The position numbers were made by a program, and so were the translations under genes. Positions 17,973-25,231 of a stretch of 64,000 nucleotides of DNA are shown one piece after another; the stretch's first letter is position 1; every line of letters begins with the position of its first letter. Source of the stretch: Halanaerobium saccharolyticum (GTDB lineage Bacteria; Bacillota; Halanaerobiia; Halanaerobiales; Halanaerobiaceae); the NCBI RefSeq assembly GCF_004362045.1, contig NZ_SNWX01000002.1:124001-188000 (forward strand), given 5' to 3'. A model generated the notes under the pieces. It saw only the letters and a list, made by a program, of their open reading frames with translations. It did not search any database and was not told where the DNA came from.

Positions 17973-18001
17973 TTGACTTATTTAGAGAATTCAGTTATAA
18001 T
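17973..18001 (+). promoter_or_regulatory. trp operon promoter
   Basis: TTGACT (17973-17978), 17-bp spacer, perfect TATAAT (17996-18001). Transcription would start near 18008, so the RNA begins almost directly with the TRAP triplets. A small palindrome TTACCAGTGGTAA (17944-17956) lies 16 bp upstream. Confidence 0.85.
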
Positions 18002-18012
18002 TAAAAAAATTC

Positions 18013-18065
18013 GAGATTAGAAGAGCCCAGATTAGTAGAGAAGAGTAGAGATGAGATCAGTAGAG
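18013..18065 (+). promoter_or_regulatory. TRAP (MtrB) binding site: 11 NAG triplets
   Basis: Triplets start at 18013, 18018, 18023, 18028, 18033, 18038, 18043, 18048, 18053, 18058 and 18063: GAG, TAG, GAG, CAG, TAG, GAG, GAG, GAG, GAG, CAG, GAG. All 11 are spaced by exactly two bases. TRAP is an 11-subunit ring that binds one (G/U)AG per subunit when loaded with tryptophan. The site is at the 5' end of the predicted trp transcript and 20 nt before an intrinsic terminator, the arrangement used for tryptophan-dependent attenuation. Confidence 0.93.
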
Positions 18066-18085
18066 CAAATATGTGTAATTAACGG

Positions 18086-18125
18086 GCCAGATTTATATCT
18101 AATTTATATAAATGTGGCTTTTTTT
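18086..18125 (+). terminator. trp leader attenuator terminator
   Basis: GCCA-g-ATTTATAT (18086-18098) pairs with ATATAAAT-g-TGGC (18106-18118), followed by seven T residues (18119-18125). A competing pairing such as AGATTAG in the TRAP region (18029-18035) with CTAATTT in the terminator loop (18099-18105) could act as antiterminator. Confidence 0.85.
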
Positions 18126-18154
18126 AATTAATTATTTAAATTAGCTATGAATTA

Positions 18155-18377
18155 TCAAAAGTTAATTTTAAAATTTGAGCACCGTGACTTTTTAAATTTA
18201 TTAGAACAGCTTGATAAAGGCTAAGTTAAATTAATCTTCAGGGCAGGATGCCCTGAACTGACCGGTCAGCAGGACGCTGGCATCGGGAAGATAGATTAAT
18301 TTAACTTGAAAACTGAAGCTTAGCTGTTCTTAAATTTAAAGTGGAACTAGCTTAAAATTTAAAAATTCAACTTTTGA
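18155..18377 (+). ncRNA. large nested foldback (223 nt) in the trp leader, function unknown
   Basis: Three concentric inverted repeats are visible: CAAAAGTT (18156-18163) / AACTTTTG (18369-18376); AGAACAGCT (18203-18211) / AGCTGTTCT (18322-18330); and a perfect 15-bp pair at 18223-18237 / 18293-18307. The inner 55 nt are GC-richer and fold further: TCAGGGC-aggat-GCCCTGA (18238-18256), the palindrome TGACCGGTCA (18259-18268 region) and CAGC-aggac-GCTG. GATGCC (18247-18252) and GGCATC (18279-18284) offer an alternative pairing. It has no ORF and no T-box or known riboswitch core that I can recognise. It may be a structured leader RNA, a processed small RNA, or a foldback mobile repeat. Confidence 0.6.
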
Positions 18378-18395
18378 AATCTCTTACTAATAACT

Positions 18396-18449
18396 ACGGT
18401 CAGGCTTTTAACCAAGCTCTGGCCGTTTTCTGGTTTTAGAGCAGAAAAC
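18396..18449 (+). terminator. second terminator-like hairpin and overlapping hairpin before trpE
   Basis: ACGGTCAGGCTT (18396-18407) pairs with AAGCTCTGGCCGT (18414-18426, one bulged T), followed by TTTT. A second perfect stem, GTTTTCTG (18425-18432) / CAGAAAAC (18442-18449), overlaps it by two bases and would remove its T-tract. The trpE ribosome site AGGAGG follows at 18463. The pair could form a second attenuation or translation switch. Confidence 0.55.
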
Positions 18450-18474
18450 TGAAATAAGTTAAAGGAGGAGAGAG

Positions 18475-19983
18475 ATGAAAAACAAAAATGAATTTTTAGA
18501 ATTAACAGCAGAATATAATTTGATACCAGTTTACGAAGAATTTATTGCAGATATTGAGACTCCAATTTCTTTATATAAAAAATTAGCTTTAAATGAAGAT
18601 TATACCTATCTATTAGAGAGTTCGGAAAATGACCGCTATTCTTTTATCGGTTTAAGACCAGCAGCTGTTCTTAAAAATTATGATGATTATTTGGAAGTAA
18701 TTAGAGGGGAAAAAAAAGAGAAGTTGGAAAATCAGGAGATAGTTCCCTATCTGCAGCAGCAGCTGGCTGAGCTTAAAGTCTATGAAAATGAAAAATTACC
18801 TCCTTTTTCTGGAGGTTTTGTTGGCTACTTTAACTATGAGATGATCGAAAAATGGGAGGATATTTATCACCTGGAAGCAGATAAAGAATTGAAGAAGGAT
18901 AATACGCCGCTCAGTCTGCTGGTGATGAGCAGGATTATTATTGCCTATGATCATCTGCATAATACAGTTAAAATTATCAATAATCTCAAAGTAGAAGCGG
19001 AGTTAAGCCGGGAAGAAAAAGCAGAAATTTATCAGCAGGCTAAAGAAGAAATCAAAAAGATTAAAACTGAAATTGAAAATAATAATTCAAAATTAAAGCC
19101 GGCTGCAGTCAATTTAGATTCAAAAGAAGGTAAAAAGTTAAAATCAAATACTACAAAAGAAGAATATAAAAAGATGGTGGAAAAAGCGAAGGAACATATC
19201 AGGGCAGGAGATATTTTTCAGATTGTACTCTCCCAGAAATTTTCAATAGAAAATGATCTGCCACCTTTTAAAATTTATAGAGCCTTAAGGTCGGTTAATC
19301 CGTCTCCTTATTCTTTCTATCTTAATTTTCCCGAGATAAGAATTATTGGTTCATCGCCTGAGGTGCTGGTCAGAGTTAGAGATCAGAGGGTAATGACCAG
19401 ACCGCTGGCAGGAACCAGACGCAGAGGCAAAGACAGCAAAGAAGATCAGGAACTAAAAATGGATCTCTTAAATGATGAAAAAGAAAAGGCAGAACATACA
19501 ATGCTTCTGGATCTGGGCCGCAATGATTTAAGCCGAATTGCAGCTCCCGGCAGTGTTGAAGTTACTGAATTAATGGAAGTTGAGTTTTATTCGAGAGTAA
19601 TGCACATTGTTTCTCAGGTGGAAGCTGATCTGAAAGAGGGGCTGGACAGCCTGGATGTTTTAAAATCAGTTTTTCCGGCCGGTACAGTATCCGGTGCTCC
19701 CAAAATTAAGGCAGTTGAATTGATTGATGGACTGGAAAAAGAAGCGCGGGGAGTGTATGCAGGTACAGTAGCATATTTGAGTTTTAATGGTAATTTAGAC
19801 AGCTGTATTACAATCAGGACCTTTTCTTTAGTTCAGGGAAGACTTAACTTACAGGTTGGAGCCGGAATTGTTGCCGATTCTGATCCTGTCAAAGAATATG
19901 AAGAGACACTTAACAAAGGGCGGGCTCTATTTGAGGCTCTAGAAGTGGTAAGGGAGGATGGTATCCGTGATTTTAGTAATTGA
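18475..19983 (+). CDS. trpE: anthranilate synthase component I
   Basis: A 502-residue chorismate-using enzyme that with TrpG makes anthranilate, the first step of tryptophan synthesis. The N-terminal regulatory region keeps the tryptophan feedback motif LLESSENDRYSF. The catalytic domain shows GDIFQIVLSQKF, PSPYSFYLNF, GSSPEVLVRV, RPLAGTRRRG, EHTMLLDLGRNDLSR, FPAGTVSGAPKIKA and GAGIVADSDP. ATG 18475 follows AGGAGGAG. It is the first gene of a seven-gene trp operon controlled by the TRAP leader; its 3' end overlaps trpG, the usual arrangement for coupled subunit synthesis. Confidence 0.97.
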   Translation: MKNKNEFLELTAEYNLIPVYEEFIADIETPISLYKKLALNEDYTYLLESSENDRYSFIGLRPAAVLKNYDDYLEVIRGEKKEKLENQEIVPYLQQQLAELKVYENEKLPPFSGGFVGYFNYEMIEKWEDIYHLEADKELKKDNTPLSLLVMSRIIIAYDHLHNTVKIINNLKVEAELSREEKAEIYQQAKEEIKKIKTEIENNNSKLKPAAVNLDSKEGKKLKSNTTKEEYKKMVEKAKEHIRAGDIFQIVLSQKFSIENDLPPFKIYRALRSVNPSPYSFYLNFPEIRIIGSSPEVLVRVRDQRVMTRPLAGTRRRGKDSKEDQELKMDLLNDEKEKAEHTMLLDLGRNDLSRIAAPGSVEVTELMEVEFYSRVMHIVSQVEADLKEGLDSLDVLKSVFPAGTVSGAPKIKAVELIDGLEKEARGVYAGTVAYLSFNGNLDSCITIRTFSLVQGRLNLQVGAGIVADSDPVKEYEETLNKGRALFEALEVVREDGIRDFSN

Positions 19984-20530
19984 TAATTATGATTCCTTTA
20001 CCTATAATTTAGTTCATCTACTGGAGGAATTTGATCAGGTAGAGGTAAGGCGCAATGATAAGCTGACGGTTGATGATATAGCAATTATGGCTCCGGAGAA
20101 GATTGTTATTTCTCCAGGCCCCGGTCGCCCGGAGGATGCAGGGATTTCTAAAGAATTAATTTTATACTTTAAAGATAAAATTGATATTCTGGGAGTCTGT
20201 CTTGGACATCAATGTATTGGAGAGGTTTTTGGATCCAGGGTAGTTGAGGCAGACAGAGTTGTTCACGGCAAGGTATCTGCAATCAAAAAAGTTAAAGATA
20301 GCAGTCTTTTTGCCGGAATTGACGATGGTTTTGCCGCTACCCGCTATCATTCCTTGATAGTTGAGCGAGAAAGTTTGAGTCCAGAACTTGAGGTGCTGGC
20401 AGAAAACGATGAAGGTGAAATTATGGCCTTAAAACATAAAAAATATCCAGTCTATGGAGTCCAGTTTCATCCAGAATCAATTCTGACTGAAGCCGGCAGA
20501 AAGCTGATCAAGAATTTTCTGGAATTATAA
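19967..20530 (+). CDS. trpG: anthranilate synthase component II (glutamine amidotransferase)
   Basis: A 187-residue class I glutamine amidotransferase supplying ammonia to TrpE. It starts (M)ILVIDNYDSFTYNLV; the oxyanion loop is SPGPGRPEDAG, the nucleophile C78 is in GVCLGHQ, and the His/Glu pair is in FHPESILT. GTG 19967 is preferred: it lies 9 nt after AGGGAGG and gives the normal N-terminus, whereas ATG 19958 abuts that ribosome site. It overlaps trpE by 17 bp. In many Firmicutes this protein is shared with folate synthesis (PabA); a TRAP-regulated trp operon containing it implies a trp-dedicated copy here. Confidence 0.96.
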   Translation: MILVIDNYDSFTYNLVHLLEEFDQVEVRRNDKLTVDDIAIMAPEKIVISPGPGRPEDAGISKELILYFKDKIDILGVCLGHQCIGEVFGSRVVEADRVVHGKVSAIKKVKDSSLFAGIDDGFAATRYHSLIVERESLSPELEVLAENDEGEIMALKHKKYPVYGVQFHPESILTEAGRKLIKNFLEL

Positions 20531-20628
20531 TTTAGAATAAAGGCGAAGAAAATAAATTTGAGTTTTGATTTGAATTATTTAAAAAAAGACTAGCTGAGAT
20601 GAGTAGAAATTTTAGAGGAGGAGAGAGT

Positions 20629-21681
20629 ATGTTTAATAAACATTTAGATAAAGTGGTGAGTGGAAAAGATTTAAGTCTGGCAGAAATGGAAGAGGCAATG
20701 TCAATGGTAATGGAAGGCAAGACAACAGACAGTCAGCTGGCTGGATTTCTGGTTGGACTGCGGATGAAGGGTGAAACAATAGATGAAATAACCGGAGCGG
20801 CAAGTGTAATGAGGAATAAAGCAGCAGAAGTTAAAACTGAAGCCCGGGATTTGATTGACAGCTGTGGAACCGGGGGAGATGAAAAAGGAACTTTTAATAT
20901 TTCTACTACTACTGCTCTTGTTATGGCAGCTGGGGGCTTAAATGTTGCCAAACACGGGAACCGTTCCGTCTCTTCTAAAAGCGGGAGTGCTGATCTGCTG
21001 GAAGCTCTGGGGGTCAAAATTGATTTAAGTCCGGAGTCAGCAGGCAGATGTCTGGACGAGATTGGGATTTCCTTTCTTTTCGCTCCCCATTTTCATCAGG
21101 CAATGAAATATGCAGTTGGCCCTCGGAAAGAGCTTGGTTTAAGAACTATCTTTAATATTTTAGGTCCCCTGACCAATCCGGCAAAGGCTGACTATCAGGT
21201 GCTGGGAGTTTATAAAGAAGAACTGGTACTGCCTCTGGCCCATGTACTCAAAAACTTAGGTTTAAAATCAGCAATGGTTGTTCACGGAGCTGGTGGGGTT
21301 GATGAACTGTCTCTAGCTGGAGAAAATAAAACTGCATATTTAAAAGATGGAGAAGTTAGAGAATATAATTTTAGTGCTGAAGACGCCGGTCTTGAGGCTG
21401 CACCACTGGAGTCGATTTTAGGTGGAGAGCCGGAAGTGAATAAGGAAATAACCCTGGATATTTTAAAAGGTAAAAAGGGGCCCAAAAGAGATGTGATTTT
21501 ACTCAATTCGGCAGCAGCTTTTTTAGTAGAGGATAAAGTTAAAACACTGCAGGAAGGTGTTAAACTGGCAGCCGAACTGATTGACAGCGGGAAAGCAATG
21601 CAGAAACTGGAAGAGCTTATTCAGTGCAGCAACTCATTAGATAATAGTTCTAGTGATAATAATTCCAGGGCGGTGTCTTAA
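20629..21681 (+). CDS. trpD: anthranilate phosphoribosyltransferase
   Basis: A 350-residue enzyme transferring phosphoribose from PRPP to anthranilate. The PRPP loop CGTGGDEKGT (79-88), KHGNRSVSSKSGSADLLE, and the anthranilate-binding segment GPRKELGLRTIFNILGPLTNP are all present. ATG 20629 has AGGAGGAG 8 nt upstream; the earlier in-frame ATG at 20599 has none. The last 20 residues form a Ser/Asn-rich tail (SNSLDNSSSDNNS) beyond the usual end. The stop overlaps the trpC start as TAATG. Confidence 0.96.
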   Translation: MFNKHLDKVVSGKDLSLAEMEEAMSMVMEGKTTDSQLAGFLVGLRMKGETIDEITGAASVMRNKAAEVKTEARDLIDSCGTGGDEKGTFNISTTTALVMAAGGLNVAKHGNRSVSSKSGSADLLEALGVKIDLSPESAGRCLDEIGISFLFAPHFHQAMKYAVGPRKELGLRTIFNILGPLTNPAKADYQVLGVYKEELVLPLAHVLKNLGLKSAMVVHGAGGVDELSLAGENKTAYLKDGEVREYNFSAEDAGLEAAPLESILGGEPEVNKEITLDILKGKKGPKRDVILLNSAAAFLVEDKVKTLQEGVKLAAELIDSGKAMQKLEELIQCSNSLDNSSSDNNSRAVS

Positions 21682-22424
21682 TGATTTTAGATAAAATTGT
21701 AGAGCATAAAAGAAAAGAAGTTAAAAAACTTAAACAGCAGAGAAGGTCTCTGAAAGAAAAACTGGCAGCAGACAAAATTTCCCTGCTGGCAGAAATCAAA
21801 AAAGCTTCGCCGAGTAAAGGCCTTATACAGCCGAACTTTAATCCAGCTGCTCAGCTTAAAGCCTATGAGCAGGTAGGAGCTGCAGGAATTTCGATTTTAA
21901 CTGATCAGAAATTTTTTCAGGGCAGTAATCAGATATTAAGGGAAATGAGAGAACTGACTGAACTGCCAATTTTACGCAAGGAATTTATTATTGACCCACT
22001 TCAGATTTATGAGAGCTTTTTTATCGGAGCTGATGTAATCCTTTTAATAGCTGCAATTTTAGATGACCGGCAGCTGGAAAGTTTTCTGGCTCTGGCCAGA
22101 GAGTTAAAGCTGGAGGCAGTAGTTGAGGTGCACAGTCGGGAAGAATTAAAACGGGTTTTAAAAACTGAAGCAGAGATAATCGGAATTAATAACCGTGACC
22201 TAAATGATTTCAGTGTTGATCTGAAAACAACAGCCGATTTAAATGCTGAACTGGAGAAGCTGGACCAGCGGGATAATCACTATCTGATTGCTGAAAGTGG
22301 TATTAAAACTAAAGCAGATATAGATTTTTTAAGAGAAATTGGAGTAGATGGAGTTTTGATCGGGGAGACTTTAATGAAAGCAGAATCTCCAGCAGCAAAA
22401 GTTAAGGAGCTGGGGCTAAACTAA
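21681..22424 (+). CDS. trpC: indole-3-glycerol phosphate synthase
   Basis: A 247-residue TIM barrel that closes the indole ring from CdRP. It shows LLAEIKKASPSKGLI with the catalytic lysine, ISILTDQKFFQGS, PILRKEFIIDPLQIYES, GINNRDLNDF, IAESGIKT and VLIGETLM at the phosphate end. It is a monofunctional enzyme, separate from TrpF. Translation is coupled to trpD by a one-base TAATG overlap. Confidence 0.97.
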   Translation: MILDKIVEHKRKEVKKLKQQRRSLKEKLAADKISLLAEIKKASPSKGLIQPNFNPAAQLKAYEQVGAAGISILTDQKFFQGSNQILREMRELTELPILRKEFIIDPLQIYESFFIGADVILLIAAILDDRQLESFLALARELKLEAVVEVHSREELKRVLKTEAEIIGINNRDLNDFSVDLKTTADLNAELEKLDQRDNHYLIAESGIKTKADIDFLREIGVDGVLIGETLMKAESPAAKVKELGLN

Positions 22425-22484
22425 AGACAAAAGAAGGGCACTCAGACAGAAGATGATTTATTTAAATATTCGGAGGTGGATAAT

Positions 22485-23144
22485 TTGTTAGAAAATAGAA
22501 CTATGATCAAGCTCTGTGGAATGACCCGGAGAGAAGATATTGTATATGCAGTTAATATAGGAGTTGACGCACTGGGCTTTATTCTGGCAAAAAGTCCCCG
22601 GCAGATCAGTCTGGAAAAAGTAAGAGAACTTACTCATAATCTACCACCATTTATTAACCGGGTAGCGGTTGTGGTAAATCCTGAAGCAGAAGAAGTGGCA
22701 GAAATAGAAAAAAGCGGATTATTTGATTATATTCAGTTTCATGGTAGTGAGGAGCCAAAGCTGCTTGCAAGTTCAGTCTTAAAAAGCATTAAAGCTATCT
22801 CAATTGCCGGAAAAAAAGACATGGATGAGGTTAAAAAATATAAAGGAAGTGCAGATTATCTCTTATTTGATACTAAAATTGGCAGTCAGACTGGTGGTAC
22901 AGGAGAGAGTTTTGACTGGTCCTTAATTAGTGAGCTAAAGCTGCCCTATATCCTGGCCGGGGGTCTGGGACCAGATAATATTGAGGCGGCTCTTAAGAAA
23001 TTAAATCCCCTGGCGGTTGATCTCAACAGTCAGGTAGAAAGTGAACCAGGACAGAAAAATAGGCGTCTGGTTAAAAAGACAGTGGAGAAAATAAAAAGTT
23101 TTAAGCCAAAAAGTGAAACCAAAATCAAATTAAAATTTATTTAA
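22485..23144 (+). CDS. trpF: phosphoribosylanthranilate isomerase
   Basis: A 219-residue TIM barrel carrying out the Amadori rearrangement of PRA to CdRP. The catalytic cysteine is in KLCGMTRREDI and the catalytic aspartate in LLFDT; ALGFILAKSPRQI, DYIQFHGSE and ILAGGLGPDNI complete the pattern. The phosphate-binding end reads AVDLNSQVESEPGQKN where most TrpF proteins have VDVSSGVE, a visible departure. TTG 22485 is chosen because it is 7 nt after GGAGGT; ATG 22503 would give the shortest family-like N-terminus but has no ribosome site. Confidence 0.93.
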   Translation: MLENRTMIKLCGMTRREDIVYAVNIGVDALGFILAKSPRQISLEKVRELTHNLPPFINRVAVVVNPEAEEVAEIEKSGLFDYIQFHGSEEPKLLASSVLKSIKAISIAGKKDMDEVKKYKGSADYLLFDTKIGSQTGGTGESFDWSLISELKLPYILAGGLGPDNIEAALKKLNPLAVDLNSQVESEPGQKNRRLVKKTVEKIKSFKPKSETKIKLKFI

Positions 23145-23259
23145 ATTTTGATAAATCGAAGTATAGCAGGGCAGAGAATCACTGATTTAAAAATAAAAAT
23201 TTGGTTCGAAAATAAAAATCGGGATCAATTATTTTCAAAAAATGAAAGGAGTAGAGAAG

Positions 23260-24444
23260 ATGAGCAGAGGCTATTTTGAAGAATTTGGGGGACGTTTTGT
23301 TCCAGAAACTCTAATGCCGGCTCTGGATGAGCTGGAAGAAGTATATTTAGAGCTGAAAGATGATCCGAAATTTATTAATAAATTAAAGTCACTGCTTGCT
23401 GATTACAGCGGCAGACCGACTTCCTTATATTTTGCTGAACAGCTGACTAAATACTACGGGGGAGCAAAAATTTATCTAAAACGGGAGGATTTAAATCACA
23501 CCGGAGCTCATAAAATTAATAATACATTGGGGCAGATTCTGCTGGCCAAAAAAATGGGCAAAAAAAGAATTATTGCAGAAACTGGAGCCGGTCAGCACGG
23601 TGTAGCCACTGCAACAGTAGCAGCCCGCTTTAACTTAGACTGCGAAATCTATATGGGTGCTGAAGATATAGAGCGGCAGGCACTTAATGTCTATAAGATG
23701 GAGATGCTGGGGGCAGAGGTTATTCCGGTAACCAGTGGGACCCAGACTTTAAAAGATGCTACAAACGAAGCAATTCGTGACTGGGTGACAAATGTTGAAG
23801 ATACCCACTACATTATTGGTTCTGTAGTTGGCCCTCATCCCTATCCGGAGATGGTTCGAGATTTTCAGCGAATTATCGGTGATGAAACCAGAAAGCAGAT
23901 CCAGGAAAAAGAGGGCAGATTACCGGACTATATTTTAGCCTGTGTTGGAGGCGGCAGTAATGCGATGGGGATTTTTTATCCTTTTGTGGAAGATAAAGAA
24001 GTTAAGTTAGTTGGGATTGAGGCTTCTGGTAAGGGAATAGACAGCGGCCAGCATGCAGCGACTTTAACTGCCGGTCGGGTTGGAGTTTTACACGGAAGTA
24101 AATCTTATCTGCTGCAGGATGATGATGGACAGATTATCCCAGCATATTCAATTTCTGCCGGGCTTGATTACCCGGGAGTAGGGCCAGAACACAGCTATTT
24201 AAAATCAATTGAGCGGGTGGATTACCAGTCTGCAACTGATATGGAAGCTGTAGCAGCATTCAAATTATTGAGTGAAAAAGAAGGGATTATTCCTGCCTTA
24301 GAGAGCTCCCATGCTCTTTCTTATTTAGAAAAACTGGCTCCAGAACTTGATCAGAATCAGCTAATAGTCGTCAATCTGTCCGGTCGGGGCGATAAAGATA
24401 TCAATAATTTTAAAAAGATCAGGGAGGCAGAAGAGAATGAATAA
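23260..24444 (+). CDS. trpB: tryptophan synthase beta chain
   Basis: A 394-residue PLP enzyme joining indole and serine. The PLP lysine K85 is in [23 protein letters not shown]-type phosphate loop GGGSNAMG, and the C-terminal NLSGRGDKD are diagnostic of the main TrpB1 type that works with TrpA. ATG 23260 follows AAAGGAG by 8 nt; the longer reading starts inside the ribosome site. It overlaps trpA by 8 bp, in keeping with an alpha2-beta2 complex. Confidence 0.97.
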
Positions 24445-25231
24445 AATAACAGCACAATTTGAGGATAAAAAACCTTTAGTTACCTATATCAGTGGTGGTG
24501 ATCCCAGTCTGGAGATGACCGAAAAATTAATATATAAACTGCAGGCTGAAGGTGTAGATATTATTGAGTTGGGGATTCCCTTTTCTGATCCCCTGGCTGA
24601 TGGCCCGGTGATTCAGGAGGCCTCTCAAAGAGCTTTAAAGGCGGGAACAACTTTAAAAAAGCTAATTGCAAAAATTAATGAGATTCAGGATAGAGTTGAG
24701 GTGCCGCTGGTTTTAATGGGGTATTATAACTCAGTTTTAAATTACGGCGAAAAAGAATTTGCCCGAGATATATCAGCAGCAGGAATCTCAGGTGTAATTA
24801 TTCCCGATCTGCCAGTTGATGAAAAAGCAGAGCTTTCAGTCCACCTGGCTGAGTATGGGATTTCTCAGATTATGCTGGTAACTCCCAATACATCCGATCA
24901 GCGTCTAAAAGAAATTATCGTTAAAAGTTCAGGTTTTCTTTACTGTGTTGCTCATCTGGGAACTACGGGAGATGATCAGCAGGGAGTCTATCCTGGTTTA
25001 GAAAAGTATCTGCAGCGGGTCCGCAAAACTGCTGGAGATTTACCGCTGGGGCTTGGTTTTGGGATTGACGGCCCGGAAAAAGTTAAAAAGATAATTGATT
25101 ATCCTGATGGAATTATTATTGGAAGTGCCCTGATTAAAGCTATTCAGGCCGGGAATACAGAGGCAGAAATGCTGGCTAATGCCGGAGAATTTGTAAAAAA
25201 AATTAAAAATGCCATAATTGAAGAAAATTAA
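24437..25231 (+). CDS. trpA: tryptophan synthase alpha chain
   Basis: A 264-residue TIM barrel cleaving indole-glycerol phosphate and channelling indole to TrpB. Catalytic glutamate lies in [18 protein letters not shown] and catalytic aspartate in [14 protein letters not shown] and [13 protein letters not shown] form the phosphate site. It is the last gene of trpEGDCFBA and is followed by a strong terminator, so aromatic genes are not appended as they are in Bacillus. Confidence 0.97.

Follow-up and report, generated by a model that had tools for sequence, protein, structure and literature searches.

Here we describe a trp operon leader which, on the evidence of its own sequence and of the genomes around it, is almost certainly under TRAP control. 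It lies in a window of 64,000 nucleotides, i.e., the whole stretch of DNA that was analyzed (contig NZ_SNWX01000002.1 of Halanaerobium saccharolyticum). In the reading that we favor, with a probability of about 0.7, the leader would act as a TRAP attenuator with two terminators in tandem: the second of them, T2, would be guarded by a long-range antiterminator, AT2, and the first, T1, would probably be stimulated by bound TRAP. To our knowledge, TRAP is a textbook regulator that has been studied almost only in Bacillus; here, it is predicted to control both trp and trpP in a Firmicute that has an outer membrane, with neither anti-TRAP nor a 5′ stem-loop.

The putative binding site is a run of NAG triplets (seven GAG, two TAG and two CAG) that follow one another in exact 5-nt steps, downstream of a predicted promoter:

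17973..18001, forward strand: sigma-70-type promoter, TTGACT at 17973-17978, a 17-nt spacer and TATAAT at 17996-18001 (11 of 12 consensus matches)
18013..18065, forward strand: predicted TRAP binding site, 11 NAG triplets starting at 18013 (GAG), 18018 (TAG), 18023 (GAG), 18028 (CAG), 18033 (TAG), 18038, 18043, 18048 and 18053 (all GAG), 18058 (CAG) and 18063 (GAG) (count, Markov simulations, trpE leaders of relatives)

The transcript is predicted to start near 18008, so that the first triplet falls at about +6, and genus relatives carry a similar promoter at a near-constant distance from their first triplet. The array agrees with the description of a TRAP site as about eleven (G/U)AG triplets, 2-3 nt apart, in a trp leader, nine of the 11 being GAG or TAG and the remaining two CAG. 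Across the trpE leaders of relatives the GAGCC within it is strongly conserved, and the other spacers are variable. When the whole window was simulated with order-3 Markov models (n = 100), the longest exact 5-nt NAG run was of 3-5 and never longer than 5; in the real window, the second-longest such run is of 4. Runs of 11 were thus never approached, which leaves very little room for the idea that the array is a chance product or a simple repeat devoid of TRAP function. It is true that AG-every-5-nt runs turn up in many unrelated genomes, scattered among the matches listed from a scan over 84,980 genomes, but triplet chains are kept at the same place 5′ of trpE in much of the order despite differing spacers, and the genome has both mtrB and a site at trpP (see below). 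As a map of TRAP sites, that scan was discarded for the noise among the matches listed.

Downstream of the array lies a complete set of trp genes, identified by their Pfam matches:

18462..18474, forward strand: trpE Shine-Dalgarno region, AAGGAGGAGAGAG (sequence reading, accessibility prediction)
18475..19983, forward strand: trpE (PF04715 and PF00425)
19958..20530, forward strand: trpG, glutamine amidotransferase (PF00117)
20599..21681, forward strand: trpD (PF02885 and PF00591)
21681..22424, forward strand: trpC (PF00218)
22476..23144, forward strand: trpF (PF00697)
23242..24444, forward strand: trpB (PF00291 and place in the operon)
24437..25231, forward strand: trpA (PF00290)

An earlier note on this DNA had described eleven triplets at 5-nt steps, beginning some 6 nt after the transcript start and standing ahead of trpEGDCFBA. 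These statements are borne out by the recount and the simulations, by the start predicted from the promoter and by the Pfam matches, respectively.

The genome also encodes the protein. A genome search returned a single mtrB (G000:C27:29688-29891, E 7.3e-38), scoring above the NCBIfam equivalog cut-off and flanked by dnaE-like and pfkA-like frames, with one small frame between (names by inspection). Aligned to B. subtilis TRAP, its product is identical at 42 of 75 positions and retains T25, T30, Q47, T49 and S53, which we take to be the tryptophan-pocket residues. Also retained are F32, E36, K37, D39, K56 and R58, the RNA-contact residues of TRAP (PMC3184956). The search for mtrB that the earlier note had proposed has therefore found the gene, with contact and pocket residues kept, and the objection that the note had foreseen, a genome with no mtrB, falls away. 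This TRAP (L001:1471-1713), like that of most genus members, has Leu at position 11, and the V11L mutant of B. subtilis TRAP is a 12-mer (PMC3184956); at position 72 the present protein has the Ser of 11-mers. To judge from these positions, a ring of 11 subunits and one of 12 are both possible.

Across the order, mtrB was detected in 28 of 29 good genomes, and in 200 of 398 genomes sampled phylum-wide; among 14 control genomes, it was present in B. subtilis only. The claim that TRAP control extends beyond Bacillus to an LPS-bearing Firmicute thus holds as regards the presence of TRAP, but this is no isolated case, given its occurrence in half of the phylum sample. An LpxC match (E 4e-98) supports the diderm, LPS-bearing nature of the host that had been proposed. 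As for anti-TRAP (rtpA), whose search had also been suggested, PF15777 matched in this genome only inside a 379-residue frame, which we read as DnaJ-type from its length and zinc-finger type; the search returned no dedicated small anti-TRAP, only DnaJ-type frames. Anti-TRAP is also missing from some Bacilli (PMC11255114).

Between the array and trpE, two intrinsic terminators are predicted:

18084..18126, forward strand: T1, AU-rich hairpin (18084-18120) plus T tract (folding z -5.45, relatives' leaders)
18396..18429, forward strand: T2, GC-richer hairpin (18396-18426) plus TTTT (folding z -5.63, homologous hairpins)

T1 starts 19 nt after the last triplet, and none of 200 shuffles of the stretch 18075-18132 folds as well as the real sequence (z = -5.45). 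A simple terminator scan of the window picks up neither T1 nor T2; the T1 stem has an internal mismatch. When trpE leaders were compared, both terminators were found in most of the genus, and homologues of T2 in genus relatives and in the sister family; T2 occurs without T1 in G018 and in the sister-family genomes G024, G025 and G026. The earlier note was right to expect an intrinsic terminator after the array, as predicted for T1, but it overlooked the second one at 18396-18426. It had moreover taken termination at about 18125 to be the regulated event; the best-supported antiterminator belongs to T2. This antiterminator is made of two distant strands:

18021..18053, forward strand: AT2 5′ strand, within triplets 3-9, including GAGCC (duplex prediction, alignment, folding)
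18379..18409, forward strand: AT2 3′ strand, ATCTCTTACTAATAACTACGGTCAGGCTTTT, including the 5′ arm of T2 (duplex prediction, alignment, folding)

In the leader of H. saccharolyticum, the 5′ arm of T2 together with 17 nt upstream is predicted to pair with triplets 3-9 at -25.7 kcal/mol, a value equaled by 2 of 300 spacer scrambles; for a shorter target it is equaled by none of 500 spacer scrambles and by 3 of 416 coding windows, and under the stricter control of dinucleotide shuffles of the target by 27 of 500. The pairing is conserved across the genus and partly in the sister family having T2 only: in 11 of the 13 genomes with this type of T2 at most 25 of 500 scrambles equal it, whereas it is weak in G018 (52/500) and absent in G024 (422/500). 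In an alignment of 11 genomes, standard pairs make up 83.8% of the cells, a percentage that 172 of 500 column shuffles reach; sliding the partner lowers it to 23-46%. Covariation is modest, with four pairs changed on both sides, as many as in 38 of 500 column shuffles, so that it could have arisen by chance. In the three genomes for which the nascent RNA was folded up to the 3′ arm of T2 (G000, which is the present genome, G016 and G012), the minimum-energy fold is AT2, inside which T1 stays intact and the spacer folds on itself. These predictions make T2, with AT2, the probable regulated terminator.

A classical attenuator, in which T1 alone would be regulated, T2 would be either a remnant or simply an additional terminator and AT2 would be incidental, is the main competitor, though an unlikely one in our judgment. 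The position of T1, 19 nt past the last triplet, and its AU-rich stem resemble the B. subtilis attenuator (PMC3913778), and another genus, g5 (G002-G004), has a hairpin of the T1 type whose pairing with the triplets is good, 5 and 18 of 500 spacer scrambles equaling it in two of the three genomes (G002 and G003). In the present genus, however, the pairing of T1 stays at background: 82 of 500 scrambles equal it in the leader under study, and in the nine genomes with both terminators the corresponding figures are 26-176 of 500 for T1 and 0-25 of 500 for T2. Besides, T2 stands alone in the four genomes named above, and the operon would be shut off if T2 were constitutive. A terminator with a competing antiterminator drawn from the triplet region is thus predicted for T2, not for T1 in this genus. 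An antiterminator for T1 built on a GCCC/GGGC match was considered and dropped, as in this genus it is matched by spacer scrambles and coding windows.

The likeliest role for T1 would be that of a terminator stimulated by TRAP itself, which we consider probable from the foregoing comparison; for the AU-rich attenuator of B. subtilis, there is evidence that bound TRAP promotes termination (PMC3913778). As T1-triplet pairing is at chance level, the model leaves read-through of T1 without TRAP unexplained.

Another proposal moves the control to translation: TRAP would mainly act on RNA from read-through, by freeing the AT2 3′ strand, which would sequester the trpE Shine-Dalgarno region, as the trpE hairpin of B. 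subtilis does, termination being secondary. When the site is held unpaired, the predicted accessibility of the Shine-Dalgarno region drops in 10 of 13 genomes (from 0.49 to 0.41 in the present one, from 0.80 to 0.42 in G016 and from 0.88 to 0.25 in G011), and G006, G008 and G009 carry triplets right over the trpE start or ribosome site. Nevertheless, the effect is small in the present leader, G024 does not show it, and in G015 and G020 it goes the other way; most of the genus conserves two terminators, and this genome has no triplets over the trpE start. As the principal mechanism, translational control therefore seems improbable to us, more so than the classical attenuator, while sequestration of the ribosome site by the freed strand, as modeled, is possible as an additional effect. 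In L064, L065 and L071, triplets at the trpE start are found besides the leader array or, in L071, in its place, and there direct translational control of trpE is possible.

In the preferred reading, with AT2 guarding T2, tryptophan-loaded TRAP would wrap the 11 triplets at the extreme 5′ end of the RNA. When tryptophan is lacking, the free triplets would pair with the AT2 3′ strand, T2 would be blocked and the polymerase would enter trpE; with TRAP bound, that pairing would be prevented, T2 would form and transcription would stop. At T1, the weaker, AU-rich terminator, bound TRAP would stimulate early termination. We infer the dependence on tryptophan, the termination in the cell and the part played by T1. 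Every defining feature of TRAP attenuation open to a sequence check is present, the antiterminator as a prediction. More tentatively, and with less than even odds, a single 5′ TRAP site might govern T1 through bound TRAP, T2 through AT2, within which T1 is enclosed, and the trpE ribosome site once there is read-through; if so, one protein-RNA contact would operate a triple lock. A leader of this kind offers a clean case in which to separate TRAP-stimulated termination from antiterminator competition.

The two terminators are here set apart by an insertion:

18150..18376, forward strand: palindromic repeat insert between T1 and T2, ends approximate (this genome only, leader comparison)

The insert, of about 230 nt, is absent from the corresponding position in the relatives that were compared, and it accounts for the AT2 span of about 330 nt. 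Since it folds on itself, the predicted AT2 should survive its presence. It is an intergenic REP-like palindromic repeat with a core like CTTCAGGGCAGGATGCCCTGAACTGACCGGTCAG, of which partial copies lie at G000:C2:223280-223428, G000:C2:51879-51976 and G000:C14:67315-67413.

A sequence model built from the triplet sites was run over the genomes of the order. In the genome of H. saccharolyticum it gave a second candidate, weak (E 0.02), on contig 3 (L253:1190-1290, G000:C3), where NAG triplets extend across the Shine-Dalgarno region and start codon of a gene for TrpP, the tryptophan transporter (PF17099, E 1.4e-44). In B. subtilis, trpP is a known translational target of TRAP (PMC11255114), and it is predicted to be the second target here. 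In relatives, sites are predicted 5′ of trpD (G006, G008 and G009) and 5′ of trpB (G001 and G005), and in G024 and G025 (loci L004 and L006) a triplet array lies between mtrB and a downstream trpB, gene names being by inspection in all these cases. A DAHP synthase gene of G005 likewise has NAG triplets overlapping its start (L098, about 1500-1530), and arrays of this kind stand before DAHP-synthase-like frames in L260, L261 and L264; TRAP may on this account extend to the shikimate pathway.

In sister orders, mtrB, a triplet site downstream of it and trpE lie together in one stretch (names by inspection). In L074 and L075 (G029 and G028), it lies just 5′ of trpE or trpB with the array between, and L004 and L006 (G024 and G025) are arranged likewise; TRAP is there grouped with its own targets. 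Some genomes keep mtrB with no trpE found (G014, G021, G022, G001, G031 and G032); G014 has a site at a trpP-like gene, and the array of G021 (L245) precedes an unrelated-looking gene. The occurrence of mtrB in one half of the genomes sampled phylum-wide, together with sites at trpE, trpD, trpB, DAHP synthase and trpP, makes the ancestry of TRAP and the minimal parts of the system amenable to testing.

Our literature searches did not find TRAP, mtrB and Halanaerobium together, although the comparative surveys of Gutierrez-Preciado and colleagues (2005 and 2007) may list such genomes; publications joining Halanaerobi, tryptophan and attenuation concerned other subjects, by their titles and abstracts. 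Among known systems, the Trp T-box leaders of other Firmicutes share with this one the control, predicted here, of an intrinsic terminator by the 5′ leader of a trp operon. At gathering score the window matched none of the Rfam families, the T-box among them, and a permissive covariance-model scan gave no T-box either. The TRAP of Bacillus halodurans, with its 12-subunit ring, belongs to the same protein family, and the Leu11 seen here is the substitution that makes a 12-mer of B. subtilis TRAP (PMC3184956); however, the B. halodurans site has 19 triplets and the present one 11, with Ser at residue 72 as in 11-mers.

The closest parallel is the trp attenuator of B. subtilis, from which the present leader departs in several respects. 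Its triplets are in exact 5-nt steps, against 2-3 nt spacers in Bacillus. The B. subtilis leader has a 5′ stem-loop before the triplets, whereas here only about 5 nt separate the predicted start from the first triplet, leaving no room for one; we take that stem-loop as a trait of B. subtilis and not as a requirement of the family. T2, some 270 nt further on with a long-range antiterminator of its own, the lack of anti-TRAP, the location of trpG inside the operon and that of mtrB between dnaE-like and pfkA-like genes are likewise unlike B. subtilis. Common to both are the RNA-contact residues of TRAP, a trp leader bearing 11 NAG triplets, an AU-rich terminator soon after the site and, here by prediction, an antiterminator formed from part of the triplet region and a trpP that is also targeted over its start.
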